DNA of 64,000 nt from Prosthecobacter sp. (GTDB lineage: Bacteria; Verrucomicrobiota; Verrucomicrobiia; Verrucomicrobiales; Verrucomicrobiaceae): positions 54,912-118,911 of the forward strand of contig JAIPJY010000018.1 of assembly GCA_021733925.1 (NCBI GenBank). Direction: 5' to 3'. The number at the start of each line of letters is the position of its first letter. The first letter of the stretch is position 1. A program made the position numbers and the translations under genes. The notes beneath the pieces were generated by a model. That model made no database searches. It was given only the letters and a program-made list of their open reading frames with translations, and was not told the origin of the DNA. Positions 19,828 to 51,016 of this stretch are shown one piece after another.

Positions 19828-19845
19828 ATGGAGTGTACACCCCAT
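19828..19845 (+). promoter_or_regulatory. ATGGGGTGTACACCCCAT palindrome, copy 1
   Basis: ATGGAGTGTACACCCCAT, one mismatch from the perfect palindrome. It ends 38 bp before the chosen start of the amidase gene. This is one of eight related sites in the window; the half nearest the gene (CCCCAT) is intact, as in all copies. Confidence 0.6.
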
Positions 19846-19883
19846 TGTTGACGTTGCACAGCGACACCATGCTGGTGGTCAAT

Positions 19884-21167
19884 ATGATGAACAACCGTCT
19901 CTGTGGCATGACTCTTGGTGGACTGTTGCTGATAATTATTTTCAATGGCTGTGCCTCACCGCAGCGTCGGCTGAAGCATGCACGTGAGCATGCGTTCATC
20001 AGCTACTGGCCGCCACCGGCGCAGAGCGAGGGACTGCGGCTGGCGGTGAAGGACAACATCGACATGAAGGGCAGGGTGACCTCGGCGGGATCTGAGTATC
20101 TGGCGAAGCACAACCCGCCAGCTGCGCGAGATGCCGCGTGTCTTGCGCTGGCTCGGGAGCGCAATGTGCAGATCGTGGGTAAAACCAATCTCACGGAGTT
20201 TGCGGTGACGGTTTCCGGCGAGAACGTCTATTTTGGTACGCCGAGAAGCCGGCTGGATGGCAAAGGCGATGTGATCCCGGGTGGTTCTTCGAGCGGTTCA
20301 GCGGTGGCGGTGGCGACGCGCATGGCGGACGTGGCGTTTGGCTCGGACACGGGGGGCTCGATTCGTGTGCCAGCGGCCTGCAACGGCGTGTATGGACTGA
20401 AGACAACCTTTGGCTTGGTTTCCACCAAGGGTGTGTTTCCTATCTCGCCCAAGCATCTGGACACGGTGGGTCCGCTGGCACGTAACATCAGCGATCTGGC
20501 CCAGGGGATGGATTTGCTGGAGCGCGGGTTTGCGGGCAAATACCGGGAGGCTGTGGCTGACAAACCACGCGCGCGGCACATCACCATCGGGCGGCTTTAT
20601 GTGAGCGGCACGGATGCGGCAATTGATAAAGCCATCGACGATGAACTGACCGCAAAGCATTTCAAGATTGTGAAACTCAGCAAGGACTTCGAGACGAAGT
20701 GGCACCAGGCGGAGAAGGACGGCAAGGTGGTGGCGCTGGGCGATGCGTGGCTCAATGACCAGCAGTACGCACATCAGAAAGGCGTGAGCCTGCTGACAAA
20801 GCTGGTGCTGGCCAATGGCGAACTGGATTACCACTTCGGCTACAAGGAAGCGGTGAAACGCAAGGCGGCATGGCAGCGTGAACTGCGCGCGGTCTTTAAG
20901 CAGGTGGATTTCATTGCGATGCCGACGCTGAAGAGCCTGCCGCCGAAAATGCCCTACTGGGGTTCGGATGTGATCTTTGAACTGCACGTGTTTGGCATGC
21001 AGAACACGCTGCCGGTGAACTTTGCGGGCAATCCTGCGCTGGCCATTCCAATCTCAATGCCGCCGACGAAAAAAACGATTCCTGTGACCAGCCTGCAACT
21101 TGTCGGACCACGGTTGAGCGAGGCCGCGCTTTTGAATGCGGGCCGCCTGATTGAACTCAAAAACTAA
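19884..21167 (+). CDS. Amidase-signature lipoprotein
   Basis: About 427 aa from the ATG at 19884, preceded by GGTGG; starts at 19869 and 19887 are also possible. The ORF runs open further upstream (19794), but that would translate through the palindromic regulatory site. The N-terminus is hydrophobic with a cysteine (LLLIIIFNGCASP), suggesting a lipoprotein. The amidase-signature family triad is complete: Lys in LAVKDNIDMKG, cis-Ser in GGSSSGSAVAVA and nucleophile Ser in GSDTGGSIRVPAA. These enzymes hydrolyse amides; GatA is the housekeeping relative, but the signal and lack of gatB/gatC nearby argue for a separate envelope amidase. A TPR gene follows after 4 bp. Confidence 0.85.
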   Translation: MMNNRLCGMTLGGLLLIIIFNGCASPQRRLKHAREHAFISYWPPPAQSEGLRLAVKDNIDMKGRVTSAGSEYLAKHNPPAARDAACLALARERNVQIVGKTNLTEFAVTVSGENVYFGTPRSRLDGKGDVIPGGSSSGSAVAVATRMADVAFGSDTGGSIRVPAACNGVYGLKTTFGLVSTKGVFPISPKHLDTVGPLARNISDLAQGMDLLERGFAGKYREAVADKPRARHITIGRLYVSGTDAAIDKAIDDELTAKHFKIVKLSKDFETKWHQAEKDGKVVALGDAWLNDQQYAHQKGVSLLTKLVLANGELDYHFGYKEAVKRKAAWQRELRAVFKQVDFIAMPTLKSLPPKMPYWGSDVIFELHVFGMQNTLPVNFAGNPALAIPISMPPTKKTIPVTSLQLVGPRLSEAALLNAGRLIELKN

Positions 21168-21171
21168 CGCC

Positions 21172-21942
21172 ATGAACCTAGCCTCCATCTACCGAACTTC
21201 CGTCTATGCCGCAGCGCTGCTGCTCACCTGTGGGACGACTCGTGCACAAAGCGCGAGTGAACTGATGCAGAAAGGCGATGCCTATGATCTCAAGTTTCAG
21301 GCGACTGAGGCGCTGCGTTATTATCTGCCGGCGGAGAAACTGGAACCTTCAAATGTGGATTTGCTGGTGCGCATTGCGCGGCAGTACCGGCATTTGATGT
21401 CGGATGCGAGCACTGGTGCGGAAAAACTCAAGATCGGTGCCGTTGCGCTCGACTATGGCGAGCGTGCAGCCAAGCTGGGGCCGAAAGATTCGGATGCGCA
21501 GATCTCACCGGCGATCACCTACGGACGCATGCTTCCCTATCAAGGTAACAAGGAGCAGGTGGCGGCCACACCGCTGATCAAAGCGGCGGCGGACCGCGCC
21601 ATCGCCCTGAATCCGCGCAACGATGTGGCCTGGCATGTGCTGGGAAGATGGCATCAGGTGCTGGCCAATATGGGCGCGCTCAAACACATGCTAGGCGGGC
21701 TGATCTACGGCAAGCTGCCAAGCACCACGAATGAAGCGGCGATCGTGTGCTTTGAACGGGCCATCGCGATCAATCCGCGTCGCCTGCGTCATTACATCGA
21801 GCTGGGGCGCACGTTTGCGCAGATGGGAAAAAAAGCCGAAGCGCGGAAGTATATTGAGAAAGGTCTCGGCATGCCCAACATTGAAAAAGATGATGCCGAG
21901 CTGAAGCTGCGTGGTCGCGAGGACTTGGCGAAGCTGCAGTGA
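21172..21942 (+). CDS. TPR protein resembling RMD/FAM82 family
   Basis: 256 aa from the ATG at 21172 with a signal peptide (AAALLLTCGTTRAQS). It consists of helical repeats: a TPR-like unit around residues 35-65, then AWHVLGRWHQVLANMGALKHMLGGLIYGKLPSTTNEAAIVCFERAIAINP and YIELGRTFAQMGKKAEARKYIEKGL. This order resembles the regulator-of-microtubule-dynamics (FAM82) tetratricopeptide family, which also occurs in bacteria where its role is unknown. It lies 4 bp after the amidase gene and probably forms a two-gene operon with it. Confidence 0.65.
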   Translation: MNLASIYRTSVYAAALLLTCGTTRAQSASELMQKGDAYDLKFQATEALRYYLPAEKLEPSNVDLLVRIARQYRHLMSDASTGAEKLKIGAVALDYGERAAKLGPKDSDAQISPAITYGRMLPYQGNKEQVAATPLIKAAADRAIALNPRNDVAWHVLGRWHQVLANMGALKHMLGGLIYGKLPSTTNEAAIVCFERAIAINPRRLRHYIELGRTFAQMGKKAEARKYIEKGLGMPNIEKDDAELKLRGREDLAKLQ

Positions 21943-21949
21943 ATGATTG

Positions 21950-24136: not shown

Positions 24137-24153
24137 GTAGGGTTTTACCCCAT
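24137..24153 (+). promoter_or_regulatory. Palindrome copy 2 (AT-core variant), PKS promoter region
   Basis: GTAGGGTTTTACCCCAT, followed by GGC. It lies between asnB (start 54 bp away) and the PKS gene (start 104 bp away). The same 17-mer occurs at 41873-41889 on the opposite strand. The conserved CCCCAT half faces the PKS gene. Confidence 0.55.
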
Positions 24154-24257: not shown

Positions 24258-27200
24258 ATGCCCACACTCAAACATTCCTCTTCGTCTCTGCCGCCTGCAC
24301 CGCCAATCTTAAACAAGGAGAGTGTCGCCATCATCGGGATCGGCTGCCGTTTTCCTGGTGGGGTGAATGACGTGGAATCGTTCTGGAAGCTGCTGGAAGA
24401 GGGCCGCGACGCTGTGTGTGATGTGCCGGCTGACCGCTGGAATGTGGAGCGTTTCTATGATCCGGAACCGGGGATCGTCGGCAAGACGGTGGCCAAGCGT
24501 GGGGGCTTCATCGACGGCATCGACCAGTTTGACCCGCAGTTCTTCGGCATCTCGCCGCGTGAGGCGCCTTACATTGATCCTCAGCAGCGTCTGCTGCTCG
24601 AAACCGCGTATGAAGCCATTGAGGATGCGGGTCTGGTGCTGGATCTCGACAAAGGCACGGACATCGGCGTCTTCGTCGGCATCTCGCACAATGATTACCA
24701 GGGCTTGCAGCATACGGCGACGGATCGTGCCGGCATCAGCGCGCATACGCCGACGGGCAGCGCGCACAGCATTGCTGCGAACCGCATTTCCTACTGTCTG
24801 AATCTGACCGGACCGAGCATCGCGATGGACACGGCCTGTTCATCAGCGCTCACAGCCGTGCATGTGGCCTGCGAGCACATCCTGGATGGTCGTTGCAAAA
24901 CGGCGATGGCAGGTGGCGTGACGGTGATGATCACCCCGGATGGATTCATCGGCTTTTCCCAGGCGGGGATGCTTTCCCCTGAAGGCAAATGCAAGGCCTT
25001 CGATGCTTCAGCGAATGGCTTCGTGCGTGGCGAAGGCGCAGGCATGGTGCTGCTGAAAAAACTCTCTGATGCCATCGCGGATGGTGATCCGATCCATGCC
25101 GTGATCATGGGGTCGGCGGTGAATTCAGATGGACATACCAATGGTATCTCGCTGCCGAGTCCGGAAGCGCAATCGCGTCTGGTGCATGATGCATGCGTGG
25201 TCGCTGGTGTCTCTCCAGAAGCCATCGGCTACGTCGAAGCGCACGGCACGGGCACTGCAGTGGGTGACCCCATCGAAGCGCATGCACTTGCTGAGGCTTT
25301 GTGTGCCGAGCGTGCTGAGGACGCACCGCTCGTGATTGGCTCGGTGAAAACGAATCTCGGTCATTTGGAAACCGCGTCTGGCGTGGCTGGGCTCGTCAAA
25401 GCGGTGCTGGTGCTCAAGCACGCACGCATTCCGGCCAGCCTGCATTATGAATCGCCGAATCCGCACATCGACTTCAGCGCGCTGAAGCTGCGCGTGCCCA
25501 TGGCCAGCGAAGAGTTTCCAGACACAGGCACCATGCGACTTGCCGGCGTGAACTCCTTCGGCTTTGGCGGCTCCAATGCGCACGTGATTCTGTCTGAGGC
25601 GCCGAAGCAGGCCCTGCGCGCCCATGTGACTCCTGCCATCAACCGCGCCTGGCCGCTGACGCTTTCCGCACGTTCTGAGAAAGCACTGCAGTCTGCGGCG
25701 TGGGAGCTGAGCACCTGGGTGGATGATCACTCGAAACTGAATGGCAGTTCACCACTGCTGCAAGACCTCACCTACATGCTGGGGGCACGGCGCAATCACC
25801 ACTCGCATCGTCTGGCGTTCACCGCGCGGACACTGGGCGAGATGGTGCAGGAGCTCAGCGCCTTTGCATCGGGACAGCCCGGACCCCGCATGCGCAGTTC
25901 CTTCACTCCCCGGCGCGAGCATGCCGCAAGAGTTGTTTTCGTGATGAGCGGCCAGGGGCCGCAGTGGCAGGGCATGGGCCGCGAACTCATGGAGCATGAG
26001 CCGGTGTTTAAAAAGATGATTGAAGCCTGTGACAAGGCCATGAAGCCATGGGCGAAGTTCTCCTTGATCGATGAACTCAACCGCCCTGAGGCGGAAACAA
26101 AGATGCAGAAAACCGCGATCTCGCAGCCTGCCATTTTTGCCATGCAGATGGCACTGGCAGCTCTGTGGCAGTCATGGGGCATCCAGCCTGCTGCAGTCGT
26201 CGGTCACAGTGTCGGCGAAGTGGCCGCAGCCTGCATCGCAGGCATCCTCACGCTGGATCAGGCGGCGAAGATCATCGTGCTGCGCGGACGTTTCATGGAT
26301 GAATGCGCCGCGGCAGGTGGCACCATGCTGGCCGTGGGCATGAGCCCCGATGAAGCGCGTGCGGTGATCGCCAAACATGACCGAACCGTGAGCATTGCCG
26401 CCTTCAACGGCCCGCGTTCGCTGACGTTGTCGGGCTTGAAGACTTCGCTGGAGGCCATCGCTGCCGAACTGGAAGTGAAGGGCGTCTTTGCGCGCTTCCT
26501 GCAGGTGAGCCATCCATTCCATCATGCGATGATGCAACCTGCAGCGGATGCCTTGAATGCAGCACTCAGCGATTTGAAACCGCAGGCTGCAACGATGCCG
26601 TTTTTCAGCACCGTGACAGGCAAGCGTCTTGATGGCGCCTCCTGCACCGCTGGCCATTGGTCAAGTGGGGTGCGGCAGCCCGTGGAGTTTGCGCAGGCGA
26701 TTGGTGCTGTGGCGGAGTTTGGTGTTGATGTGTGGCTTGAGATCGGTGCGCATCCCGCGCTGGTACGTTCCATGCAGGAATGCCTGGGCGAAGACGCCAG
26801 CAAAGCCACCGTGCTGGGCTCTATACGCCGCGAACGAGAGCATGAATCCTTGCTGGAAACAGCGCTGGATCTGCATCTTGCCGGAGTTGTGCTCGACTTC
26901 CATGCGATCACACCTTCGCGCCGTCATCTGACGTTGCCGACCTATGCCTGGGACAAGAGCCGCTGGTGGAATGAGTCTCCCGAAATGCGCGAAGGCCGTC
27001 TGGCCCCCGGTGGGCGTGGACTGCTTGACATCCGCCTCGCCTGCGCCACGCCGACGTGGATCACGCGGCTGGACAATCGACACATGGCTTTCTTGAAGGA
27101 TCATCGTGTTGAAAACCTCATCATCTTTCCGGCTGCGGGCTTCGTCGAAATGGCGCTGGAAGCCGGGGTGCAGTTGTTTGAGGGCAAAGCTTTTGTCATT

Positions 27201-30200
27201 GAGGACTTCGAAATCCGCAAGCCGCTCATCCTGCCAGATCCGCCTTCCGGCCTGCTGCTGGAACTGACGTATGACCTCAAGGAGCGCACGTTCTCCATTC
27301 AGAGCCGTTTTGAAAGCGGGGCCTCATGGTCCACGCACGTCGTGGGTGCCATGCGCGGCGAGCGCACCGAATCATCCTTCGCTGCATCGACTTGGGAGGC
27401 ATCCAAGCTTCCAGCCGTCGGCCTCGACACCTTCTATGATCACATGAGTGACATGGGACTGCGTTATGGTGAGGAGTTTCGTCCCATTCGTGAACTTTCC
27501 GCCAGTGCCGGCAAATCGGCAGGTCGCGTGTCGCTGAGTGCTGGGATCGCCACGCGTGCCGCCGAGTATCCGTTGCATCCGGTGCTGTTTGATGGCGCGC
27601 TGCAAATCTTCTCCGCAGGTGCGGCGACCGTTGAGGGTCGTACGGCAGGCCTGCGGCTGCCCGTGCGCTTTGCGCGCATCTTGTTCCTGCGCACGCCCGG
27701 TGCATCGAGCCGGGTCTGTGCGGGAGTGAAGGATGCGAATGATGAATTCGTGGAAGGCGGCATTGATCTGTATGATGAAGCTGGCAGGCCTTGTGTCCGT
27801 ATTGACGGCTTCCGCGCCATCAGTGTCGAAGGATCACGCCGCACAGGGAAAAACGGCAAGGGCAGGGACGTGACTTATCACATCGCCTGGGAGGAGCGCA
27901 CGCTCGGTCTCAAGACTGCTGCTCCCGTCCCGGTGGCACTGAGCCGCCTGCATGCTGCAGCACAGCACGCTCTGGATGAAGTGCTCGACATGCGCGGACG
28001 CAACAACCTTGATGCTGCCAGCGCTGCTGGCGACGAGTTGACTGCCGCCCAAGTCGCGAGCGGTCTGCGTGCCATGGGCGCGGATGGTGAATTCACGGCG
28101 AAAACACTTGGCGTGAGCGACTCCATGCAGCGCTCGTTCGTGCAGTTGATGAACAACCTGGTGAAGCAAAATCTGCTGATCCAAAAAGGTGCTGGTTACC
28201 AGACGACACCTGCCTTCACGAAGGCTGCAGATTCGTCAGCGGCGCTGCTCAATTCGTGCATTGGCCTGTATCCCGGCCATATGCCAGAGGCGCTGCTGTG
28301 CGGTGCCACCTGTGCGGAACTCGGCCCCATCATGCGCGGTGAAAAGGAGGCCGTGCAGGTCTTGTTTGCCAGTGGTGGCGCGGATTTGCTCGATCAGTTT
28401 TACGGCGACGGCCTCGTCACAAGCCCTTGGCTCGCGGCCATCGCCAGCGCGGTGGCCGAAGCGGCACGCAGTCTTCCTGAAGGACGCGGGCTCCGCATTT
28501 TGGAAATCGGAGCAGGCACCGGCGGTCTCGCCTCTCAGGTGCTCCCCGGCCTTGAGCGCGGGGTGCATTCCTATGTCTTCAGCGATGTTTCACCCGCCTT
28601 CTTTCCCTCTGCGAAACAGAAGCTGAATTCTTTTGCGGAGGTCGAGTACCAAGTCTTCGATTTGGAGAAGCCCGGCACTGAGCAGGAATTCAAACCCGGC
28701 TCGTTCGACATCATTCTCGGCACCAATGTGATTCATGCCGTGAGCGATGTGCGCAGCGCCCTGCGCAATCTCAATGACCTGCTCGTTCCCGGTGGCAGTT
28801 TGATGTTTGTCGATGTCGCGACGCCGCATTTGTGGCTGAACGCGGTTTTCGGTCTGACCAGCGGCTGGTGGCGTTTTACGGATCGCGATCTGCGCCCAAA
28901 TCATCCGCTGCTGGAGCGTGAGCAATGGCAGAAAGTGCTCGGTGAAACGGGCTTCAGCGAAACCGTTTCGCTCTCCGGTCTGATCCGTTCCCAAGGCGGC
29001 GAAAGCCTCATCGGCCTCATGGCACGCAAGCCATGGAGCGAGCCGGTGATCAGTGCTCCGACGTTGATCGAAGCGCCGGTGGAAAAATCCTGGCTCGTGC
29101 TGGCAGATGCAGGTGGTCTGGGAGATCAGCTCGCGGTGCAACTGCGTGCCAGCGGTGCCACTTGCCGTGTGGCACATCGCGGCAATGCTTTCGAGCCGGA
29201 AGGCACGGATGTCTTTGCTCTGCGTGCCGAGTCGCTGGAAGACTGGCAGCTGCTGCTGAAAGCCTGCGCGGATGAAGTGCCTGAGCGCTTTGTTTACCTG
29301 TGGAGTCTGGATGAGACCGAACCCGTCGCAGGCAAAGAGGCTGCGATGCTGGGAACCGATGGCTTGTTTCACCTGACGCAAGCACTCGAACTTTTCAATC
29401 CAGCGGCCAAGCTGCGCATCGATGTGGTGACACGTGGTGCACAGCCCTTTGGCCGGAACAACCCGGTCTCACTGGCCCAGGGGCCTACCCTTGGCCTGAT
29501 GCGAGTGATTGCCAATGAGCACAACAATTACACCTGCCGTGGCATTGACCTTCCGTGTGAGGCATCCGCCGCAGACAGCGGCATGCTTTGGGCTGAACTC
29601 CAGCAGGAGGATGCCGAACGCGAGATCGCCTTCCGTGGCGAAGCCCGCTATGTGCGGCGTGTGAGCCGTGGCTTGCAGTCGCGTGAGCAGGTTCTTGATG
29701 CCGCTGTGCCGCTGAGGCTTGAATCCCGCGAGCGCGGTCTTCTCGATGCGCTGCGTCTGGTGCCCTTCGCCCTGCCCCCCTGCGGTGCCGGTGAGGTGGT
29801 CATCGAAGTGAAGGCTGCAGGCATGAATTTCCGCGATGTGCTCAAGGCACTGGCTTTGTATCCTGCCGAAACGGCGGATGCGCGTGTCTTTGGCGATGAA
29901 GTCGCCGGGATTGTGAAGGCCGTAGGCAGTGGTGTGACCCATGTGAAGACGGGTGACCGTGTGTTTGGCCTCGCGGTGTTCGGACTCGCGACGCATTCCA
30001 TGGCGCGTGCCGGAGATGTGCGTGTCATCCCTGAAGGTCTGTCATTTGAAGAAGCGGCGACGTTGCCGGTGGTCTTCATGACCTCTTGGTATGCGCTCAA
30101 AACTGTGGCGAATTTGAAAAAGGGTGAGCGCATCCTGGTCCATGCGGGTGCCGGTGGTGTCGGCATGGCGGCGGTGCAGATCGCCCATCATCTCGGTGCG

Positions 30201-31958
30201 GAAGTCATCGCCAGTGCCGGCAGTCCGGCCAAACGCGCGCTGCTGACGACTCTCGGTGTGAAGCATGTCATAGACTCGCGTCGTGGAGACTTTGCCGAAG
30301 CGGTGATGGAGCTCACGAACGGCAAAGGCGTGCATGTGGTGCTGAACGCACTCGCAGCTGAAGCCATCCCGATGGGGCTCTCGTGCCTCGCACAGAACGG
30401 CCGCTTCATTGAGATCGGCAAACGCGACATCTATCAAAACAGCCGCATCCCGCTGTGGCACCTGCGGAAGAACTCATCGTTCCATGTGGTGGCGATGGAT
30501 GCGATCTTCAGCGATGACGAAGAGCAAACCCGCGAGCTGCTGGAAACGATCTCTTCTCTTGTTGAGAAGAAAGCGCTGCATGCGCTGCCGTTCCGCGCCT
30601 TCCCGGCCTGCCGCATTGACGTGGCCTTCCGCCTGATGGCGCAGGGCAGACACACCGGCAAAGTGATCGTGTCATTCCCCGAACCGTTTGTCGTGAGACG
30701 TGGCGAGCCGCTGACTCCGGCCTTTGCGGTGAAGCCGGACGGTTGCTACCTGATCACAGGCGGGTTCGGTGGATTTGGCAAAGTGCTGGCCGAGTGGCTG
30801 GTAGATTGTGGTGCGAAGCATCTGGTGCTCGCCAGCCGCAGCGGGCCTGCCACTCCTGCAGCGGAAGCCTTTCTGGTGAAACTGCGCGCACGCGGGGTGG
30901 ATGTGAAAGTGGTGCTGGCAGATGCCGGCGCTCCTGAAGACATTCATCGGTTGCTGGCGGACATTGCAGCGACCAAGATTCCGCTGAAAGGCGTGTTTCA
31001 TCTGGCGATGGTGATTGATGATGCACCGATGGCATCGCTAACACGTGAGCGGATGCGCACGGTGCTGGCACCAAAGGCGCACGGCGCCTGGATGCTGCAC
31101 GAAGGCACCTTGGGAATGAGCCTGGACTGCTTCGTGATGTATTCGTCCATCTCCAGCATCTTCGGCAACGCCGGACAGGCCAACTACGCGGCGGCGAATG
31201 CTTTCCAGGATTCACTCGCGCATCATCGTGCGGCCATGGGGCTGCCAGCGCTGGTGATCAACTGGGGCGCACTCGGCGGGGAAGGGTATGTGGCGCGCAA
31301 TGAACGTGTGGCTGAATACCTCGCACGTCAGGGCACCACGCCGCTGTCTCCGCGTGAAGTGGTATTTTTGACAGAATCCTTTCTCAATGCTGGTGCCACA
31401 CAGGCCATGGCGATGCGCGTGGACTGGTCGAAATGGCGGCAATCATCTCGCGGTGGTCAGGAGAGCCCCTTGCTGGAGCGCATCTACGCCGCTGGCGTGG
31501 ACGCCCCGGAAACGAGTGGTGCCAAGAGCGACTGGCGGCGCAAGATCGAGTCCGCAGCACCTGCGGACCGTGCGGAAGTCATCGGCCAGGCCGTGCGTGA
31601 TGTCGTAGGCTCAGTGCTGCGCGTCAAACCTGAGGGGCTGCGCTTTGACCAGCCGCTCACCGATCTTGGGCTTGATTCATTGATGGCAGTGGAGATTGAG
31701 AACTCGATTGAAAGCTCCATCGGTGTAGCCCTGCCTCCGGCGAGCCTGATGCGTGCGCGCACCATCGGCCAGATCGCGACATTGATCTCCGAGCACATGG
31801 GAGCTGTGGCTGCTCCCAAAGCGCCTGAGCTGCCCGCAGAACCTATCCCAACGGATGACGTGGATCTGGAGGCGCTCACGGATGAGGAAATTGACCGCCT
31901 TCTCGATGATGCCGAAGTGTCGGATACCCAACCACGGATGCTGGAAACTCAAGCCTGA
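24258..31958 (+). CDS. Highly reducing type I polyketide synthase (KS-AT-DH-cMT-ER-KR-ACP)
   Basis: 2566 aa, one module. KS: DTACSSA with Cys about residue 194, EAHGTGT His about 329, NLGHLE His about 369. AT: GHSVGE Ser about 651; the HPFH box near 752 suits malonyl-CoA. DH: His about 949 in DHRVENLIIFP (the usual Gly of HxxxGxxxxP is Asn) and Asp about 1112 in HPVLFDGALQ. C-methyltransferase: ILEIGAGTGG near 1415. ER: HAGAGGVGMAAVQIA near 1963. KR: TGGFGGFGK near 2165 with IDD (B-type-like) and the NYAAANAF Tyr near 2309. ACP: GLDSLMAVE Ser near 2474. No thioesterase is present. A single fully reducing module implies iterative chain building with methyl branches, a lipid-like product. The stop overlaps the next start (TGATG). 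Confidence 0.93.
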   Translation: MPTLKHSSSSLPPAPPILNKESVAIIGIGCRFPGGVNDVESFWKLLEEGRDAVCDVPADRWNVERFYDPEPGIVGKTVAKRGGFIDGIDQFDPQFFGISPREAPYIDPQQRLLLETAYEAIEDAGLVLDLDKGTDIGVFVGISHNDYQGLQHTATDRAGISAHTPTGSAHSIAANRISYCLNLTGPSIAMDTACSSALTAVHVACEHILDGRCKTAMAGGVTVMITPDGFIGFSQAGMLSPEGKCKAFDASANGFVRGEGAGMVLLKKLSDAIADGDPIHAVIMGSAVNSDGHTNGISLPSPEAQSRLVHDACVVAGVSPEAIGYVEAHGTGTAVGDPIEAHALAEALCAERAEDAPLVIGSVKTNLGHLETASGVAGLVKAVLVLKHARIPASLHYESPNPHIDFSALKLRVPMASEEFPDTGTMRLAGVNSFGFGGSNAHVILSEAPKQALRAHVTPAINRAWPLTLSARSEKALQSAAWELSTWVDDHSKLNGSSPLLQDLTYMLGARRNHHSHRLAFTARTLGEMVQELSAFASGQPGPRMRSSFTPRREHAARVVFVMSGQGPQWQGMGRELMEHEPVFKKMIEACDKAMKPWAKFSLIDELNRPEAETKMQKTAISQPAIFAMQMALAALWQSWGIQPAAVVGHSVGEVAAACIAGILTLDQAAKIIVLRGRFMDECAAAGGTMLAVGMSPDEARAVIAKHDRTVSIAAFNGPRSLTLSGLKTSLEAIAAELEVKGVFARFLQVSHPFHHAMMQPAADALNAALSDLKPQAATMPFFSTVTGKRLDGASCTAGHWSSGVRQPVEFAQAIGAVAEFGVDVWLEIGAHPALVRSMQECLGEDASKATVLGSIRREREHESLLETALDLHLAGVVLDFHAITPSRRHLTLPTYAWDKSRWWNESPEMREGRLAPGGRGLLDIRLACATPTWITRLDNRHMAFLKDHRVENLIIFPAAGFVEMALEAGVQLFEGKAFVIEDFEIRKPLILPDPPSGLLLELTYDLKERTFSIQSRFESGASWSTHVVGAMRGERTESSFAASTWEASKLPAVGLDTFYDHMSDMGLRYGEEFRPIRELSASAGKSAGRVSLSAGIATRAAEYPLHPVLFDGALQIFSAGAATVEGRTAGLRLPVRFARILFLRTPGASSRVCAGVKDANDEFVEGGIDLYDEAGRPCVRIDGFRAISVEGSRRTGKNGKGRDVTYHIAWEERTLGLKTAAPVPVALSRLHAAAQHALDEVLDMRGRNNLDAASAAGDELTAAQVASGLRAMGADGEFTAKTLGVSDSMQRSFVQLMNNLVKQNLLIQKGAGYQTTPAFTKAADSSAALLNSCIGLYPGHMPEALLCGATCAELGPIMRGEKEAVQVLFASGGADLLDQFYGDGLVTSPWLAAIASAVAEAARSLPEGRGLRILEIGAGTGGLASQVLPGLERGVHSYVFSDVSPAFFPSAKQKLNSFAEVEYQVFDLEKPGTEQEFKPGSFDIILGTNVIHAVSDVRSALRNLNDLLVPGGSLMFVDVATPHLWLNAVFGLTSGWWRFTDRDLRPNHPLLEREQWQKVLGETGFSETVSLSGLIRSQGGESLIGLMARKPWSEPVISAPTLIEAPVEKSWLVLADAGGLGDQLAVQLRASGATCRVAHRGNAFEPEGTDVFALRAESLEDWQLLLKACADEVPERFVYLWSLDETEPVAGKEAAMLGTDGLFHLTQALELFNPAAKLRIDVVTRGAQPFGRNNPVSLAQGPTLGLMRVIANEHNNYTCRGIDLPCEASAADSGMLWAELQQEDAEREIAFRGEARYVRRVSRGLQSREQVLDAAVPLRLESRERGLLDALRLVPFALPPCGAGEVVIEVKAAGMNFRDVLKALALYPAETADARVFGDEVAGIVKAVGSGVTHVKTGDRVFGLAVFGLATHSMARAGDVRVIPEGLSFEEAATLPVVFMTSWYALKTVANLKKGERILVHAGAGGVGMAAVQIAHHLGAEVIASAGSPAKRALLTTLGVKHVIDSRRGDFAEAVMELTNGKGVHVVLNALAAEAIPMGLSCLAQNGRFIEIGKRDIYQNSRIPLWHLRKNSSFHVVAMDAIFSDDEEQTRELLETISSLVEKKALHALPFRAFPACRIDVAFRLMAQGRHTGKVIVSFPEPFVVRRGEPLTPAFAVKPDGCYLITGGFGGFGKVLAEWLVDCGAKHLVLASRSGPATPAAEAFLVKLRARGVDVKVVLADAGAPEDIHRLLADIAATKIPLKGVFHLAMVIDDAPMASLTRERMRTVLAPKAHGAWMLHEGTLGMSLDCFVMYSSISSIFGNAGQANYAAANAFQDSLAHHRAAMGLPALVINWGALGGEGYVARNERVAEYLARQGTTPLSPREVVFLTESFLNAGATQAMAMRVDWSKWRQSSRGGQESPLLERIYAAGVDAPETSGAKSDWRRKIESAAPADRAEVIGQAVRDVVGSVLRVKPEGLRFDQPLTDLGLDSLMAVEIENSIESSIGVALPPASLMRARTIGQIATLISEHMGAVAAPKAPELPAEPIPTDDVDLEALTDEEIDRLLDDAEVSDTQPRMLETQA

Positions 31959-33301
31959 TGTCCCAAGACAATCGAGCACGCCTGAAGCAATGGCTGGCCA
32001 GCGGTGAAATCCGCCTGCAGCCGCTGAGCTTCCCGCAGCGCGAGCTGTGGGAGGCGGCCCCTTTGCCCGCCGCTGATGTGTCGAACAACATCTGCGCCCT
32101 CATCCAGGTGCGCGGGATGCTGACACCGCAGGGCAGCGAGGCAGCGCTGCAAAAAGTCGTGGACCGGCAGGAGGTGCTGCGGCTGTCGATCCTGCCTGGC
32201 AAAGAGCAGCCCATGCAGATGATCCGCAGGAGCGCCGCGCCTGCCTTGCGCTTTCATGAGCTCTCCTCGGCACAAGGACAGCCGGAGGCGATCGAAGAAC
32301 TCACACGTGAGATTGCCCGCCAGCCGTTTGATCTGGTGCAGGGGCCGCTCTACCGCGCCGAGGTGTTTCGACGTTCTGCGGATGAGCATGTGCTGGTGCT
32401 GGTGATCCAGCATGCCATTGCCGATGGCTGGACACTGGGCGTGTTTGTACAGGATCTGTTCGCCTCCTACATGCAGGGCGTCAGAGGCAATCACGCCGCT
32501 CTGCCGCCGGTGCCGCAGACCTATTCGCAGTGGGGCGCTGCCGAGCGTGCCTTCTGGCAGCCAGCGGTGCTTGCACCACGGCTTGAGTTCTGGCGTGCGC
32601 ACCTCGCTGGAGCCCCACGGCTCTGGAACACCGCCGTGACTGGCTCACTGCAACGCTGCGTGACACAAGTCTCTGCGGAGCTTGGTCGCTCGGTGCGCGA
32701 ACTGGCACGCCGCAATGGTGCCACGCTGTTCAGCACACTGCTGACCGCATTTCAAATCACGCTCTCAAAGTGGACAGGGAAGGATGACATCGTTGTCGGC
32801 ACGCCGGTGGCAAATCGCAGCACGCAGGCCGCGCGCGAGACGATGGGCTACTGCTCCGGCATCGTGCCGTTGCGGGGTCAGATTGATCGCACGCGTTCCT
32901 TTGCCGAAAGTCTGCGCAGCGTGCATGAGACCACGGTGGAATCATTCGCCAATGCCATTCCCTTTGCCGAACTCGTGCGTGCGCTGGGCGAAGAAACAGC
33001 ACCGGGGCACAATCCGCTCTTTGAAGTGCGGTTTGCGCTGCAAAATCATCCGATTCCCGATGTCTCTGTACCGGGCCTGTCGCTCCAGCTCCGCATGCGC
33101 AGCACGGGCACGGCACGCTTCAACCTCGCCTGTGAGATCAACGAGGAAGGGGATGCCATGGAAGTCGCCTGGCTGTTCCAGCCAAATCAGTTTTCACTCG
33201 CCGACATTCAGCAGGTGGGCCGCATGTATCTCGACGTGCTCGCCGGTGTCTGCCACTCACCCGAAATTTTGACGGCCGTCCTGATGACGACACTGCGATG
33301 A
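31958..33301 (+). CDS. Free-standing NRPS-type condensation domain protein
   Basis: 447 aa, one domain. It opens with the condensation-domain block LSFPQRELWE and has the core motif as QHAIADGW near residue 150: the second, catalytic His and the DG are kept, while the first His of HHxxxDG is Gln. Later blocks DDIVVGTPVANR and NPLFEVRFALQNHP also fit. No adenylation or carrier domain is attached. Because the PKS lacks a thioesterase, this protein may release the chain by ester or amide formation with a free alcohol or amine (inference). It is coupled to the PKS gene at its start and to the desaturase at its end (ATGA). Confidence 0.88.
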   Translation: MSQDNRARLKQWLASGEIRLQPLSFPQRELWEAAPLPAADVSNNICALIQVRGMLTPQGSEAALQKVVDRQEVLRLSILPGKEQPMQMIRRSAAPALRFHELSSAQGQPEAIEELTREIARQPFDLVQGPLYRAEVFRRSADEHVLVLVIQHAIADGWTLGVFVQDLFASYMQGVRGNHAALPPVPQTYSQWGAAERAFWQPAVLAPRLEFWRAHLAGAPRLWNTAVTGSLQRCVTQVSAELGRSVRELARRNGATLFSTLLTAFQITLSKWTGKDDIVVGTPVANRSTQAARETMGYCSGIVPLRGQIDRTRSFAESLRSVHETTVESFANAIPFAELVRALGEETAPGHNPLFEVRFALQNHPIPDVSVPGLSLQLRMRSTGTARFNLACEINEEGDAMEVAWLFQPNQFSLADIQQVGRMYLDVLAGVCHSPEILTAVLMTTLR

Positions 33302-35819: not shown

Positions 35820-35831
35820 ATCCTTGAAACC

Positions 35832-36560: not shown

Positions 36561-36561
36561 C

Positions 36562-37677
36562 ATGACATTCTTTACCATCGTTGTGCGCGGCCTGCTGCGA
36601 CGACCCGTGCGCACCGGGCTTACCCTTGTGGGCATCTCCATCGGCATCGCCGCTGTCGTTGCGCTGGTCGGCATTTCGCGTGGCTTTGAGGCCAGCTGGG
36701 CGACGGGCATGAAGGTGCGCGGCACGGATATCGTGGTGAGCAACATGGGCAACGCACTCGCTCCGAAGCCCTTCAGCTCCGAGGTGCGCGACCGCATCGG
36801 GAACTTGCCGGAAGTGGCCTCTGCATGCTCCATCTATGCCGATCTGACCAGCGTGGAGGATGCCTCGATGATGGTGGTGTCCGCACGTGAATGGGGCGGC
36901 TTTTCATGGCAAAATTTGAAGCTGATCTCCGGGCGCATGCCGCATGATGCCATGGAGCCGGCCGTGGTGCTGGGCCAGACCGCTGCCGAGATGCTCAAGA
37001 AGAAAATCGGCGATCCGCTGCAGCTTGAAACGAAAGAGCTGACGGTCACCGGCATCGTCGACGGTGGTGCGATGGTGGAGAACGGCTCGGTGATTCTGTC
37101 CCTGGCGCTCTTCCAAAACATCACCGGCAACGAAGGCCGGATCAACGTCATCGACATCCGCGCCACCCCTGGCATGAGCGAGGATGAGGTGAAGCAGCTA
37201 TGCAATAAGATCGACGCCATTGCTCCGGAAGCGAAGGCCATGGTGGCCGGAGAGCATTTGGGCAACAGCCAGGCGTTTCGCTTCATCAGCGCCATGAGCT
37301 GGGGCACTTCGCTGCTCGCGGTGATCGTCGGTGTGCTCGGGGTGATGAACACGATGCTGATGACAGTCTTTGAGCGAAAGCAGGAGATCTGCATCCTGCT
37401 GGCCATCGGCTGGAAGCCGGGGCGCGTCATTCGCATGATCTTGTGGGAGTCGGCCCTGCTCGGTTTCCTCGGCGGTATCGTTGGTGTGATCATCGGCACC
37501 ATCGGCGTGAAAGTGCTGGAGACGCTGCCCGCCATTCACGGCATGTTGGAGCCGGACTTTAACGCAGAACTGATGGGCGTTGCGGTCGTCCTCTCCGTGG
37601 TCGTCGGCGTCCTCAGCGGGCTGTATCCCGCGTGGCGCAGCTCACGCCTGACACCGAGCCTGGCGATGCAGGGCTGA
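36562..37677 (+). CDS. ABC transporter permease, FtsX/MacB/LolE type
   Basis: 371 aa. Topology fits the family: one N-terminal membrane span (TLVGISIGIAAVVALVGISRGF), a periplasmic domain of about 220 residues (MacB-PCD), then three C-terminal spans (SLLAVIVGVLGVMNTMLMTVF, ALLGFLGGIVGVIIGTIGV, VAVVLSVVVGVLSGLYPAW). FtsX-type permeases move lipoproteins, lipids or drugs outward. Its position between the ATPase and a LolA-like carrier gene suggests a Lol-like route rather than a TolC channel, since neither MacA nor TolC is in this operon. Confidence 0.9.
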   Translation: MTFFTIVVRGLLRRPVRTGLTLVGISIGIAAVVALVGISRGFEASWATGMKVRGTDIVVSNMGNALAPKPFSSEVRDRIGNLPEVASACSIYADLTSVEDASMMVVSAREWGGFSWQNLKLISGRMPHDAMEPAVVLGQTAAEMLKKKIGDPLQLETKELTVTGIVDGGAMVENGSVILSLALFQNITGNEGRINVIDIRATPGMSEDEVKQLCNKIDAIAPEAKAMVAGEHLGNSQAFRFISAMSWGTSLLAVIVGVLGVMNTMLMTVFERKQEICILLAIGWKPGRVIRMILWESALLGFLGGIVGVIIGTIGVKVLETLPAIHGMLEPDFNAELMGVAVVLSVVVGVLSGLYPAWRSSRLTPSLAMQG

Positions 37678-39179: not shown

Positions 39180-39197
39180 ATGGGGTGTTCACCCCGT
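39180..39197 (-). promoter_or_regulatory. Palindrome copy 3, upstream of DUF3309
   Basis: On the plus strand ATGGGGTGTTCACCCCGT; read toward the gene, ACGGGGTGAACACCCCAT followed by GGC. It lies 58 bp before the DUF3309 start, in the gap behind the alcohol dehydrogenase gene. Confidence 0.6.
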
Positions 39198-40282: not shown

Positions 40283-40676
40283 GCTATTGGGCATTGTTTT
40301 AGTGTTCTGACTGCTCGTGAGTTTCGACAAACCAGAGATTCATTCGGAACCGCCTGACACTTTGGTGAAGATATCCGTGATGGCCTTGTGTATGAGATCG
40401 CCGTAGAAGGAGCTTGTTTTTTGGCAGGCCGTTGCGCGTGTGAATGAGCTTGATTTTCCTGGCTCAAGCGATAGGCGAGGAATCCATGTGGCTGCCATGG
40501 GGTGAACACCCCAAATGCAAAGCTACCTGCTCCTCAAACCAAGGCTGCACATCCAGATCTGGATGTGCCAGCAGGCAGATGTTCATCGCCAGCACCGACT
40601 CAGGAGACCAGTCTTCCGCAGCTCTCGCTGTGGCGGTCTCAGGCTGAGAAAGTGTCTTCATGCGCAGCGGGTGAAA
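40283..40676. other. Intergenic region with one palindromic site
   Basis: 394 bp between the alcohol dehydrogenase and the eRF1-like gene. Apart from the palindromic site at 40497-40514 I see no gene I would support. A 65-codon minus-strand reading (40464-40661) overlaps that site and has no family resemblance. GATCTGGATGT near 40556 forms a small inverted repeat with ACATCCAGATC just before it. Confidence 0.5.
40497..40514 (-). promoter_or_regulatory. Palindrome copy 4, upstream of alcohol dehydrogenase
   Basis: Plus strand ATGGGGTGAACACCCCAA; read toward the gene, TTGGGGTGTTCACCCCAT followed by GGC. It is 214 bp from the chosen start, farther than the other copies, so a longer leader or another small gene may lie between. 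Confidence 0.55.
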
Positions 40677-41872: not shown

Positions 41873-41889
41873 ATGGGGTAAAACCCTAC
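41873..41889 (-). promoter_or_regulatory. Palindrome copy 5 (AT-core variant)
   Basis: Plus strand ATGGGGTAAAACCCTAC, the exact reverse complement of the copy in front of the PKS gene. Read toward the gene at 41126 it is GTAGGGTTTTACCCCAT followed by GGC, 39 bp before its start. A TAAATT hexamer lies between it and the ATG. Confidence 0.58.
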
Positions 41890-46618: not shown

Positions 46619-46636
46619 ATGGGGCGTACACCCCAT
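46619..46636 (+). promoter_or_regulatory. Palindrome copy 6, divergent promoter region
   Basis: ATGGGGCGTACACCCCAT: 16 of 18 positions are symmetric. It lies between the TolC-like gene (98 bp from its start) and the stress-protein gene at 46703 (66 bp from its start), and could serve either or both. Confidence 0.6.
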
Positions 46637-47173: not shown

Positions 47174-49048
47174 TTATAGATCATGGATGACCTTCGGCGG
47201 GAAGGCTGCACGCAGGGCGTTGAGCACGGCGAGAATGTCGATGATCTCCTGCGCGATGGCTCCGCTGACGGGTGGGAGATGGCCGGTGGCGGCGAAGGCC
47301 ATGCCGATGAGGCTGAGAGCCATGCCGCCAACGGCGCTTTGCAGGGCGATGACTCGCATGCGACGGCTGATGTGCATGAACTCGTCCACTTTCTTGAGCG
47401 AGTTGTCCATGATGACGACTCCGGCGGCCTCAGCGGTGACGTCGCTGTTTTGGCCGATGGCCATGCCGACGGTGGCGGCCATCATGGCGGGGGCGTCGTT
47501 GATGCCGTCGCCCACGTAGAGTGTCTTGGCCTTGGCAGTTTCGGCACGGACGATGGCGAGTTTTTCCTCGGGGCTTTTTTGCGCGTGGACCTCGGTGATG
47601 CCGACTTGCTCCGCGAGGTAGCGAACTTCGGATTCGCGGTCGCCGGAGATGATCATGACACGATCAAAATGATGCTTTGGCGCGAGGTGATTAACGAAAC
47701 TGCGGCTCTCGGCGCGGGGCGCATCGCGGAAGCGCAAGGCGGCGGCGTAGTGGCCGTCAAGAACGACGACGCATTCCAGTCCGCCAGCGATGGGTGGAAG
47801 TTGATCGGTGCCGGGGAGCTTCTGCGGGATGAGTTTGTTGCGGCTGGTGATCTGGAGCTGATGACCGGAGACGGTTCCGAGCAGCCCTTGGCCGGGTTGC
47901 TCGCTGACGTCACTGGCTTCGGGCAAAGTGAGTCCCTGCTCCTTGGCGGCGGCGATGATGGCGCGTGAGAGAGGGTGCTTTGAGTATCGCTCCAGGCTGG
48001 CAACGAGGGTGAGCACTTCTTTTTGATCCAGGCCAGTGGCGATGAGCTGCTCGGTGAGCTTGGGCTCGCCGTAGGTGAGTGTGCCGGTCTTGTCAAAAAT
48101 GGCGGTGCGGCATCCGGCGATCTGTTCGAGCACGACGGGGCTTTTGACGATGATGGCGCGACGTGCGCAGAGCGAGATGGAGCTGATGATGGCGATGGGA
48201 ATGCCCAGCAGCAGCGGGCAGGGAGTGGCGATAACGAGCACGGCGAGAAAGCGCAGGGAATCGCCACTGAGAAACCAGGCGAGCAGGGCGACAACGAGCG
48301 CGACTGGCGTGTAGATGGCTCCGAGCTGGTCGCCGAGCCGCTGGAGCTGCGGGCGCTTGCTCTCGGACTCGCGCATGACTTCCATGATCTTCGCATAGCG
48401 TGAATCGGCTGCGAGTTTCGACGTTCGGATGGTCAGCGCGGTTTCGCCATTGACGGCACCGGAGATGACAGTGGAGCCGGTGGTCTTGGTGATCTGGAAT
48501 GGCTCGCCAGTGAGGTAGGACTCGTCCATGACGCCGTGGCCTTCGGTGACTTCGCCATCGGCGGGGCAAATCTCATGCGGGTAGATGACGAGTGTGTCGC
48601 CGACGGCGATCTCCGCCAAAGCGACATCCGTGATTTCTGCACCGGCTTTGCGGTGCGCTATAGAGGGCATGCGTTTCGCCAAAGCTGCGAGCACGGATGA
48701 TGCGCTGCGCAAGGCGTAGCTCTCCAATGCCTCGCCGCCTGCGAGCATGAGAACGATGATGGAGCCTGCGAGGTATTCGCCAAGCAAGACGGAGGTGATG
48801 ATGGAGACACCGCCGAGCAGGTCGGAGCCAAACTCGCGGTTCAGCAGCTTGCGCAGCAGATCGTAGAGCATCGGCAGCCCGCCGATGATGAGTGTGATGA
48901 GCAGCGGCAGGTGCTGCGCATTCAGCGATGCCTTGAGTGCAAATCGCAGCACGAGATGCGTGACAATGCCGATGAGGGCGAGCGCGGCGATCAGCGTCGG
49001 TTTTCGCTGCCAGAGCACTGAAAGGAGCGAAGGAGGGGCTTTGTCCAT
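47174..49048 (-). CDS. Heavy-metal-type P-type ATPase (TPC motif)
   Basis: 624 aa. P1B-like core: actuator TGEP near residue 175, membrane motif ATPCPLLLG near 273 (TPC in place of CPC), phosphorylation site DKTGTLTYGEP near 318, HP motif SKHPLS near 360 and hinge GDGINDAP near 520. There is no N-terminal metal-binding domain (no CxxC or His-rich stretch) and the protein starts directly with membrane spans. TPC-type P1B pumps are a minor, poorly defined subgroup, so the metal cannot be named. It is 10 bp downstream of the DUF2231-like gene and likely co-transcribed from the palindrome-bearing promoter. Confidence 0.87.
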   Translation of the reverse strand: MDKAPPSLLSVLWQRKPTLIAALALIGIVTHLVLRFALKASLNAQHLPLLITLIIGGLPMLYDLLRKLLNREFGSDLLGGVSIITSVLLGEYLAGSIIVLMLAGGEALESYALRSASSVLAALAKRMPSIAHRKAGAEITDVALAEIAVGDTLVIYPHEICPADGEVTEGHGVMDESYLTGEPFQITKTTGSTVISGAVNGETALTIRTSKLAADSRYAKIMEVMRESESKRPQLQRLGDQLGAIYTPVALVVALLAWFLSGDSLRFLAVLVIATPCPLLLGIPIAIISSISLCARRAIIVKSPVVLEQIAGCRTAIFDKTGTLTYGEPKLTEQLIATGLDQKEVLTLVASLERYSKHPLSRAIIAAAKEQGLTLPEASDVSEQPGQGLLGTVSGHQLQITSRNKLIPQKLPGTDQLPPIAGGLECVVVLDGHYAAALRFRDAPRAESRSFVNHLAPKHHFDRVMIISGDRESEVRYLAEQVGITEVHAQKSPEEKLAIVRAETAKAKTLYVGDGINDAPAMMAATVGMAIGQNSDVTAEAAGVVIMDNSLKKVDEFMHISRRMRVIALQSAVGGMALSLIGMAFAATGHLPPVSGAIAQEIIDILAVLNALRAAFPPKVIHDL

Positions 49049-49058
49049 GCACTAGGTA

Positions 49059-49538: not shown

Positions 49539-49579
49539 GATGGATTAGATCAGCTTGCGGTGAGACGTTTCGTTTCAAC

Positions 49580-49597
49580 ATGGGGCGTACACCCCGG
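49580..49597 (-). promoter_or_regulatory. Palindrome copy 7, upstream of the DUF2231-like/P-type ATPase pair
   Basis: Plus strand ATGGGGCGTACACCCCGG; read toward the gene, CCGGGGTGTACGCCCCAT, 41 bp before the ATG at 49538. It sits in the gap behind the AI-2E transporter gene. Confidence 0.6.
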
Positions 49598-49626
49598 TGA
49601 TTTTTTCTTTGAGGCGATCTCCTCCT

Positions 49627-50685
49627 TCATTGGATTCCCAGCTTGTCATCAGACCGGCTGCGCCAGGTTTCCAGCAGCACGGTGGTGATGGTGAGCACCA
49701 CGGGCCCCAGGATGAGCCCGGCGGGACCGAAGAGCATCAGGCCACCCACCACGGAAATGAAGGCGAGCACGGTGTGCAGCTTGAGCAGATTGGCGACAAG
49801 GACGGGACGCAGGAGATTGTCAACCGTGCCAACGACGAGCATGCCCCAAAGGATCAAGATGAGGGCTTTCCCCCAACTGCCTTCCAGGGCTAGGAACAGC
49901 GCGGCGGGAGTCCACACCACGAAAGCGCCGAGCATGGGGACCACGGAGAGAATGGCCATCACCATGCCCCACAGCAGAGGAGCGGGCAAACCCAGCCACC
50001 AAAACATGAGCCCGCCCAAAAGTCCCTGAATGAGGGAAACAACCAGCGTGCCATAGACGGTCGCCCGAATGGTGTCACGAACGCGGAGAAAGAGCGTCTC
50101 CGTTTCCTCTCTGGAAAGCGGAGAGAGATGGTGCAGCGAGGCGAGTACGCCGCGCCGATCCCGCAAAAAGAAGAACAGCAAATAAAAGATGAGGCCAAAG
50201 CTGACCACCTGAATCATGGAGCCGCTGACAAAGGCCCCGGCTTTGGTGCTGAACCAGGTCGCGAGTGATTTCACCATGCCGGGCAGATCCAGTTCACGCT
50301 CGATCTTTTCGGCCACAGGTGCCAGACGCGGCTGCGCGTCGATGGCTCGCCGCCATTCGCCGGAGGCAACCTTGGTTTCGATGAGCTGAGCTCCCTGAGC
50401 GGCCTGGCCAACAAGGTTTTGACCGACAAAGACCACAGGGACAACGACGATGAATGCGATCACGACCACCGCGATCATGGCCGACAGGCCAGGATGACTG
50501 AGCTTCGACTCGAGCCATTTTTGAAACGGTGTGAAGAGCACGGACAGGGCAATCGCCCAGGTCAGTGCGGGCAAAAAAGGCTCCGCCAGCAAATAACAGA
50601 GGTTGATGCCTGTCACGATGGCGGCGATGAGCACGAGCGTCCGCAGCCGGAAGGCTTCGTGTGAATGCCAAGAGGGTGGAGTCAC
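49627..50685 (-). CDS. AI-2E family transporter (PerM/YdiK type)
   Basis: 352 aa, GTG start at 50685. Typical architecture: two spans near the N-terminus (LVLIAAIVTGINLCYLL; LTWAIALSVLFTPF), a third (AMIAVVVIAFIVVVPVVFVGQ), a large soluble part, then a cluster of spans with the family sequences TVYGTLVVSLIQGLLGGLMFWWLGLPAPLLWG and LVVGTVDNLLRPVLVANLLKLHTVLAFISVVGGLMLFGPAGLILGPV. Family members export signalling molecules or act as Na+/H+ antiporters; a specific substrate cannot be inferred. No palindromic site lies directly upstream of it. Confidence 0.9.
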   Translation of the reverse strand: MTPPSWHSHEAFRLRTLVLIAAIVTGINLCYLLAEPFLPALTWAIALSVLFTPFQKWLESKLSHPGLSAMIAVVVIAFIVVVPVVFVGQNLVGQAAQGAQLIETKVASGEWRRAIDAQPRLAPVAEKIERELDLPGMVKSLATWFSTKAGAFVSGSMIQVVSFGLIFYLLFFFLRDRRGVLASLHHLSPLSREETETLFLRVRDTIRATVYGTLVVSLIQGLLGGLMFWWLGLPAPLLWGMVMAILSVVPMLGAFVVWTPAALFLALEGSWGKALILILWGMLVVGTVDNLLRPVLVANLLKLHTVLAFISVVGGLMLFGPAGLILGPVVLTITTVLLETWRSRSDDKLGIQ

Positions 50686-50749
50686 GTTGCTAATCCTTCG
50701 TTTGTTTGGCCGCAGCCGCGGAGGGCATCAACGATCTGCACCTTGGGGA

Positions 50750-50962
50750 TCACGAGTCCTGAATGACGAATCCGACTTTGAGGGTGACCTGCCAGTGCTG
50801 CACCTGCCCCTTGTCGATGTTGCCTCGTGTTTCGGTGACCTGAAACCAGCTGAGCCCCTTGATGGTCTTGTGGGCACGCTTGAGCGCCTTGTTGACGGCA
50901 TCCTCAATGGTGGTGGTCGAGGTGCCGGTGAGTTCGATGATCTTGTAGACGTGGTCTTTCAT
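50750..50962 (-). CDS. Dodecin (flavin-binding)
   Basis: 70 aa from the ATG at 50962, the normal length. The sequence HVYKIIELTGTSTTTIEDAVNKALKRAHKTIKGLSWFQVTETRG...QVTLKVGF is a clear dodecin, including the Trp of the flavin-stacking site. Dodecins form dodecameric shells that store or buffer flavins. The ORF is open far upstream (to 51535) because a PEP-synthase fragment happens to be in frame; the ATG, and a palindromic site 36 bp before it, define the real gene. Confidence 0.92.
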   Translation of the reverse strand: MKDHVYKIIELTGTSTTTIEDAVNKALKRAHKTIKGLSWFQVTETRGNIDKGQVQHWQVTLKVGFVIQDS

Positions 50963-50998
50963 GGCGACAAATCTAGGCGCTGGAGGAGGCCTGCCGCG

Positions 50999-51016
50999 AT
51001 GGGGTGTACACCTACT
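50999..51016 (-). promoter_or_regulatory. Palindrome copy 8, upstream of dodecin
   Basis: Plus strand ATGGGGTGTACACCTACT; read toward dodecin, AGTAGGTGTACACCCCAT followed by CGC, 36 bp before the ATG. The site also marks the left border of the PEP-synthase fragment. Confidence 0.6.

Follow-up and report, generated by a model that had tools for sequence, protein, structure and literature searches.

General stress regulons of the SigB (Bacillus) and EcfG (Alphaproteobacteria) kind have CsbD and other small stress proteins among their targets, and the DevR/OsdR two-component system works with a haem-binding GAF sensor kinase. For OsdR of Streptomyces, a palindrome of 16 nt, AGGGCCGATCGGCCCT, is reported, together with a predicted regulon that takes in universal stress proteins and alcohol dehydrogenase (PMC5069765). 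The present analysis concerned eight palindromes of 17 or 18 bp in a 64,000-nt stretch of Prosthecobacter sp. DNA (assembly GCA_021733925.1, contig JAIPJY010000018.1, positions 54,912 to 118,911 of the forward strand; hereafter, the window), one of which stands before a polyketide synthase (PKS) operon. Judged from sequence comparison, the palindrome is probably the operator of a two-component stress regulon widespread in Verrucomicrobiota, with a response regulator of the NarL/FixJ family as its candidate activator.

The eight palindromes are real, intergenic and beyond chance. All eight were found where the preliminary description had placed them, between positions 19828 and 51016, and they differed from one another in sequence, with the form TGGGGT-N4-ACCCCA in six sites and an N3 spacer in two (24137 and 41873). 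Read toward the gene, CCCCAT was invariant in 8 of 8 sites, as had been described, and all eight lay outside genes when own gene calls were combined with orthologue-based starts. Site 50999 falls within a listed long open reading frame (ORF), in which the dodecin orthologue aligned from 50962; this places the likely start 37 bp downstream of the site. The distances to a start, given earlier as 36 to 104 bp for seven of the eight sites, were revised: from ACCCCA to the nearest likely start they were 24, 105, 59, 203, 40, 99 (or 28/67 on the other side), 42 and 37 bp, in window order. The pattern GGGGTNTNCACCCCAT, with up to 3 mismatches, had 15 matches in the window (palindromes counted on both strands), whereas 100 shuffles gave 4.6 on average and never more than 11. 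With a weight matrix built from 163 sites in other genomes, related ones included, the window positions scoring at least 15 bits were exactly these eight, and the next window match scored 7.5 bits. The best score was 13.2 bits across 23 further loci of the same genome, together 447,583 bases, which were not selected for strong sites (16 picked blind, one, L369, for a paralogous regulator, three for weak matches, and three forming the remainder of the window's contig; own loci fetched for strong sites, plus L351 and L352, were omitted). Chance palindromes or a dispersed repeat were ruled out by this background scan, by direction and by promoter spacing.

The window forms the end of contig C11 in a 7.3-Mb assembly of 127 contigs that is 93% complete. 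In this genome the exact pattern GGGTN{3,4}ACCCCATSG had 17 matches (one clearly within a gene, one overlapping a gene 3' end and one in a doubtful short ORF), and the reversed pattern had none. Across 68 family genomes, counts ranged from 0 to 33 each, with at least one match in 46 of the 68, and reversed controls gave 0 to 2 per strand; all genome-level counts rest on this exact pattern, and G011, with 0, yet had 15 matches to the shorter GGGTN{3,4}ACCCCAT. Sites were not equally frequent inside genes: with the pattern GGGTN3-4ACCCCATS, only 4 of 90 directional sites (40 loci of ten genomes, many of them orthologous) lay inside genes called by our own caller, which is crude and misses genes. 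For 24 of the remaining 86, the next called start was 35 to 40 bp away. In the window's genome, the genes lying behind sites or adjoining them encoded PRC-barrel, Gly-zipper, OmpA-domain, CsbD, BON, transglutaminase-like, SpoIIAA-like and universal stress (Usp) proteins, as well as 3-keto-disaccharide hydrolase, ice-binding and autotransporter proteins; a Pfam family was absent for 5 of the 20 such proteins scanned. In the relative G021, Dps was a target. By their family names, the targets read as a stress and envelope regulon.

Sites were conserved upstream of orthologues. Fourteen own sites were tested against G021, and in the 12 orthologous promoters that aligned, the core (12 positions per promoter) was identical at 144 of 144 positions, against 198 of 324 (61%) in the 27-base ungapped 5' flank; the operator form (N3 or N4) was unchanged in all 12 pairs. 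As to the other two, 24138 had been set one base off and is in fact conserved, and 46620 aligned badly; counts for G047 were left out, most promoters having failed to align there. With the core kept and the flank diverged, these comparisons indicate that the operator core is under purifying selection. A promoter-linked regulon with fixed orientation, as first proposed for these palindromes, is thereby supported by sites that are intergenic, directional and conserved upstream of orthologues. Beyond that proposal, the analysis found a -10-like box at fixed spacing, two operator geometries, a regulon extending outside the window and a candidate regulator.

Promoter anatomy was read from 185 non-redundant sites (98 N3 and 87 N4), obtained from 221 by reduction for flank similarity, with sites within 45 to 50 bases of a locus end dropped; nearly all loci had been fetched for holding sites or the regulator. 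The directional operator had two forms, RGTNGGGT-N3-ACCCCATGG and ATGGGGT-N4-ACCCCATGG. In N3 sites the left arm was RGT(A/C)GGGT and the centre mostly TWC; in N4 sites the left arm was ATGGGGT and the centre varied, with GAAC the most frequent. Both forms had a common right arm and a common -10 spacing, and the consensus directly 3' of CCCCAT was GGC. A TAnnnT hexamer started 23 nt after the T of CCCCAT in 43 sites and 24 nt after it in 15 (58 of 185); other offsets had 0 to 4, apart from a count of 10 at offset 0 that comes from the motif's own T. ATG peaked at offsets 35 to 37 (12, 23 and 15 sites), with smaller peaks at 27 (17), 24 (11) and 6 (11). With the hexamer start set at -12, the palindrome extends from about -52 to -35 with its centre near -43, which would be a class II activator position. 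Since the -10-like box is downstream of the palindrome, transcripts from this promoter would be expected to lack the palindrome; an RNA element or hairpin of the 5' untranslated region was rejected on this ground, and Rfam (gathering thresholds) found only a tRNA in the window. That tRNA-like gene (61690-61766, +; Rfam 53 bits) was given a four-base anticodon, ctcg, by ARAGORN, and by eye its anticodon loop seems to have 8 nt.

When the proteins of site-rich loci were clustered, a NarL-type response-regulator family (lone receivers included) recurred in 7 of 10 genomes, and so did HisKA_3 kinases. The candidate regulator (L121:113-790) has a receiver domain (Response_reg, PF00072; E 8e-27) and a C-terminal LuxR-type helix-turn-helix (HTH) domain (GerE, PF00196; E 5e-19). 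Against solved structures its profile scored highest with VraR (180 bits; 5hev, 7ve6, 4gvp), then DesR (137), NarL (128) and DevR (115), and its best NCBIfam model was MctR, at 194 bits against a cut-off of 300. In L208 (genome G037) the gene order was HK1, HK2, PAS kinase, two receivers, KaiC, KaiB, PAS kinase and regulator, and a site lay 99 bp ahead of HK1. Pfam confirmed KaiB and KaiC, which lie within the response-regulator operon, both there (L208 10129-12281; G037:C631) and in L116 (7629-9778; G034:C67). A site stood ahead of the operon's first kinase in L208 (5658), L120 (11846), L114 (16180), L209 (8936) and L196 (11297). One kinase, L111:11679-14441, lies 82 bp behind a site and carries a GAF domain, which the other eight kinases scanned did not; two kinases had RsbU_N similarity.

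The sites accompanied the regulator across genomes. A regulator orthologue (at least 57% identity) was present in 24 of the 68 family genomes and HK2 (E 1e-30) in 27, one of these (G019) being a 34% match only. At least five sites were found in 21 of 28 genomes with regulator or HK2 and in 3 of 40 without (Fisher p 8e-9), and, for the regulator alone, in 17 of 24 with and 7 of 44 without (p 1e-5), although these p values overstate independence because the genomes are related. A paralogous response regulator (44 to 48% identity), present in most genomes, was discarded as a candidate since it occurs in zero-site genomes too. When the regulator profile was run over named genomes of the phylum and the best 80 loci were scanned for sites of at least 16 bits (matrix from the window's family only), sites were found in 3 of 3 near-kin loci (L270-L272), in 20 of 25 other Verrucomicrobiota loci with a regulator of at least 59% identity (these 25 may include members of the window's family), in 3 of 9 loci below 59%, and in 1 of 43 of other phyla, with 0 in reversed sequence. 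Ten of the 12 loci titled as another order or class had sites: Opitutaceae (two), Opitutales, Lentisphaerae (two), Methylacidiphilaceae, Kiritimatiellae, Limisphaerales, subdivision 3 and Spartobacteria. An Opitutia locus and a Pedosphaera locus were without.

In the proposed mechanism, a phosphorylated NarL/FixJ-family response regulator of about 225 aa (receiver plus LuxR-type HTH) would bind the operator as a dimer at about -52 to -35. Its downstream half would abut a degenerate -35 region (TGGC), and the bound regulator would activate a sigma-70-type promoter whose TAnnnT box begins 23 to 24 nt further on; the inducing signal would be stress. In one target class the ATG lies 35 to 38 nt after the operator, at the expected transcript start, so mRNAs of that class probably have no leader or almost none. 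The regulator is encoded together with HisKA_3 kinases, PAS kinases and lone receivers, plus KaiB/KaiC in two examined genomes, and its operon often carries the operator, which would make it autoregulated.

Several observations weigh against this mechanism. At least five sites were present without the operon in G000 (17; the window's own genome), G048 (8) and G041 (5), and seven genomes with the operon had fewer than five exact sites; when the regulator alone is considered, fewer than five sites were present in 7 of the 24 genomes that have it and at least five in 7 of the 44 that lack it. In L116 the kinases had no site nearer than 423 bp ahead of them. The -10-like boxes of the window were poor: of nine readings (one of the eight sites having been read in both directions), two had TAnnnT at offsets 22 to 24 and one more had it at 26. 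Other HTH genes also stood beside sites, in three genomes each: LysR-type (L062, L114, L121) and an OmpR-type response regulator (L124, L126, L128). The window's own assembly, with its 17 exact sites, had no intact orthologue of the regulator, of HK2 or of the PAS kinase (best 39%), and a KaiC orthologue was not found there by a search that had no positive control. On C11 a paralogous NarL-type regulator was disrupted (9.9 to 12.5 kb; L075 9898-12511), its receiver at 12116-12511 and its HTH tail at 9904-10074 being separated by a gene that is GH13-like by eye. Because the 12 sites aligned to G021 were free of decay, we think that the operon either lies in the unassembled part of this genome or was lost recently; the alternative would be a different regulator.

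That alternative, in its general form, keeps the operator and regulon and assigns binding to a protein of another family, the kinase/response-regulator operon being just another target. It would fit the sites without the operon in the own genome, G041 and G048, the recurrence of LysR-type and OmpR-type genes, and the operator on the kinase/response-regulator operon, which is expected of any target. Yet of the HTH genes seen the NarL-type family recurred in the largest number of genomes (7 of 10), sites accompanied the NarL-type regulator in most named Verrucomicrobiota loci and were rare below about 59% identity, and the sites of DevR/OsdR, which belong to the NarL family, are similar in their 16-bp geometry; the LysR-type gene adjoins metE/metF-like genes (by eye), and its own-genome frame is fused to an aldolase part. 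Binding by another family was considered unlikely on balance. Use of two regulators, one for N3 (GTAGGGT-TWC-ACCCCAT) and one for N4 (ATGGGGT-GNNC-ACCCCAT), carried a limited though appreciable probability: the forms differ in left arm as well as in spacing and were retained in all pairs aligned to G021, but they share right arm, -10 spacing, clusters and the vicinity of the same regulator, and at the 41873 promoter three copies were N3, whereas G047 had an N4 site.

Given one dimeric regulator of the proposed kind, its sign has to be weighed as well. A dimer acting as a repressor over the -35 region, lifted under stress, would be in keeping with a site that appears to abut or overlap that region; but the -35 is poor in itself, as would be typical of activator-dependent promoters, and the stereotyped -10 spacing would be expected of an activator touching RNA polymerase and would be unneeded for a repressor, so repression was judged quite improbable. 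The same fixed spacing, with the conserved ACCCCATGG on the promoter side, could also mean that an alternative sigma factor of the extracytoplasmic function (ECF) type uses the right half as its -35 and TAnnnT as its -10, the palindrome being incidental. A first count of left arms (45 of 55) was biased by locus choice and was repeated on whole genomes. There, the left-arm-free search ACCCCATGG-N20/21-TAnnnT had 29 matches in G021, G042, G045 and G052 (reversed control 0), and 28 distinct ones were read, one of the 29 loci (L400) having been read at a neighbouring site and not counted. Exact GGGT stood at the N3 or N4 place in 25 of the 28, with one near match and two neither; -35/-10 pairs lacking the dyad were thus the exception. 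The left arm was also kept in orthologues, and the two spacer lengths leave the -10 unshifted. This sigma-factor explanation was therefore regarded as very remote. For the NarL-family activator, a wider scheme can be offered tentatively, and with more doubt than confidence: an ancient, phylum-wide general stress response, in which a multi-kinase phosphorelay (KaiB/KaiC-linked in some lineages) would feed one activator that reads both geometries, N3 and N4, at a single promoter position and drives numerous leaderless mRNAs as well as, in certain lineages, a polyketide pathway, the regulon having outlived or become separated from its original regulator in the window's species.

Within the window, the N4 operator at 19828..19845 (+; 23.6 bits on this strand, 26.6 on the other) lies in the promoter of the amidase 19869-21167 and a TPR gene, and ATGGAGTGTNCACCCCATTG was retained upstream of orthologues in L350 and L190. 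The N3 operator at 24137..24153 (+; 34.0 bits) lies in the promoter of the PKS operon, whose genes for PKS, condensation protein, fatty acid desaturase, hydrolase and ABC/MacB proteins (24258..37677, +; Pfam) make up a target operon. This promoter site was found in three genomes (own, G021 in L350 and G047 in L190), and both of these relatives, G021 and G047, carry an orthologous PKS island. The N4 operator at 39180..39197 (-; 29.7 bits) lies upstream of a 47-aa gene (38978-39121) and of 38563-38937; its distance to the ATG of the former was 59 bp, and 59, 59 and 61 bp in L121, L122 and L114. That gene, earlier called DUF3309, had no NCBIfam match.

The N4 operator at 40497..40514 (-; 32.6 bits) precedes a decayed dps copy and then the alcohol dehydrogenase 39242-40294. 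The site assigned earlier to the alcohol dehydrogenase thus really belongs to the promoter of the decayed dps, the dehydrogenase now being 203 bp off. Remnants of dps occupy 40302-40470 (-) between operator and alcohol dehydrogenase, and a full-length gene stands at this position in L122 and L191 (relatives G021 and G047), the L122 copy matching Dps. The N3 operator at 41873..41889 (-; 34.4 bits) serves the gene pair 41126-41833 and 40677-41105; it was kept as N3 in L121 and L122 and was of N4 type in L191. A two-way N4 operator at 46619..46636 (24.6 bits +, 21.6 bits -) lies between 46664/46703-47155 (+) and the outer-membrane efflux/MacAB operon 46520-41905 (-), and a variant site was found upstream of the 46703 orthologue in L122. 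The weakest, the N4 operator at 49580..49597 (-; 15.1 bits), precedes 49059-49538 and a target P-type ATPase (47174..49018, -; Pfam E1-E2_ATPase); its core was identical at 12 of 12 positions in L121. The operator at 50999..51016 (-; 18.4 bits), also found in L121 and L114, lies 37 bp from the ATG of the target dodecin gene (50750..50962, -; Pfam Dodecin; start from orthologue alignment), with an AI-2E transporter gene (49627) as a further target.

In the open frame just upstream of the dodecin gene, a fragment at 51064-51382 (-) matches the C-terminal domain of PEP-utilising enzymes and is perhaps left from a decayed gene. Elsewhere in the window, PSCyt2/PSD1 and DUF1501 genes were seen at 9147-10835 and 16307-17800 (+). 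Pairs of AT-centred GGGT...ACCC palindromes 63 bp apart occurred in three genomes (own C8:56116-56194, equal to L066 10117-10195; G047:C234:57429-57506; G048:C156:34235-34312), and may reflect another use of the site or a separate element. The LysR-type frame of the window's genome (L062 3171-4421, contig C69) joins a LysR-type N-terminal part and the C-terminal part of a class I fructose-bisphosphate aldolase; its L114 and L121 counterparts were called as genes of 312 to 318 aa. A gene for an ECF sigma factor close to a Usp cluster (L063 8531-9082) was set aside, since it was seen beside a single cluster only.

Verrucomicrobiota are abundant in soil and water, and to our knowledge little is known of how their stress survival is controlled. 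In the literature searched, most subscription journals being outside the search, titles and opening parts of abstracts showed no Verrucomicrobia regulon of this kind, and spellings of the motif, sought anywhere in the papers, were not found. As the docking site of a signal-controlled activator, the palindrome would probably be part of a shared stress-response circuit. The operator, its promoter architecture, a target list and one candidate regulator make the question testable with one protein and one 18-mer, and the link to the PKS operon suggests a condition under which its product could be made.

Among known systems, the VraR/LiaR family of cell-envelope stress regulators is similar in that VraR was the best solved-structure match and envelope genes are among the targets here; VraR/LiaR kinases and targets differ from those here. 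With SigB and EcfG, the present regulon shares CsbD and other small stress proteins among its targets and RsbU_N similarity in two kinases, but it has an operator and a response regulator instead of a sigma-factor promoter. DevR/DosR of Mycobacterium and OsdR share with the present system a two-component response regulator, a 16-nt palindrome (here TGGGGTNNNNACCCCA), a regulon with universal stress proteins and alcohol dehydrogenase, and stress genes near the regulator gene. The N4 form has the same length and the same outer G/C triplets (RGGG...CCCY) as those palindromes, whereas the inner bases differ and about half of the present sites are of the N3 form, one base shorter. The kinases here are of HisKA_3 and PAS types with KaiB/KaiC nearby, and by profile scores the regulator is nearer in sequence to VraR, DesR and NarL than to DevR, so that orthology with the latter is not supported. 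By function, DevR/OsdR would nevertheless be the nearest described system known to us.

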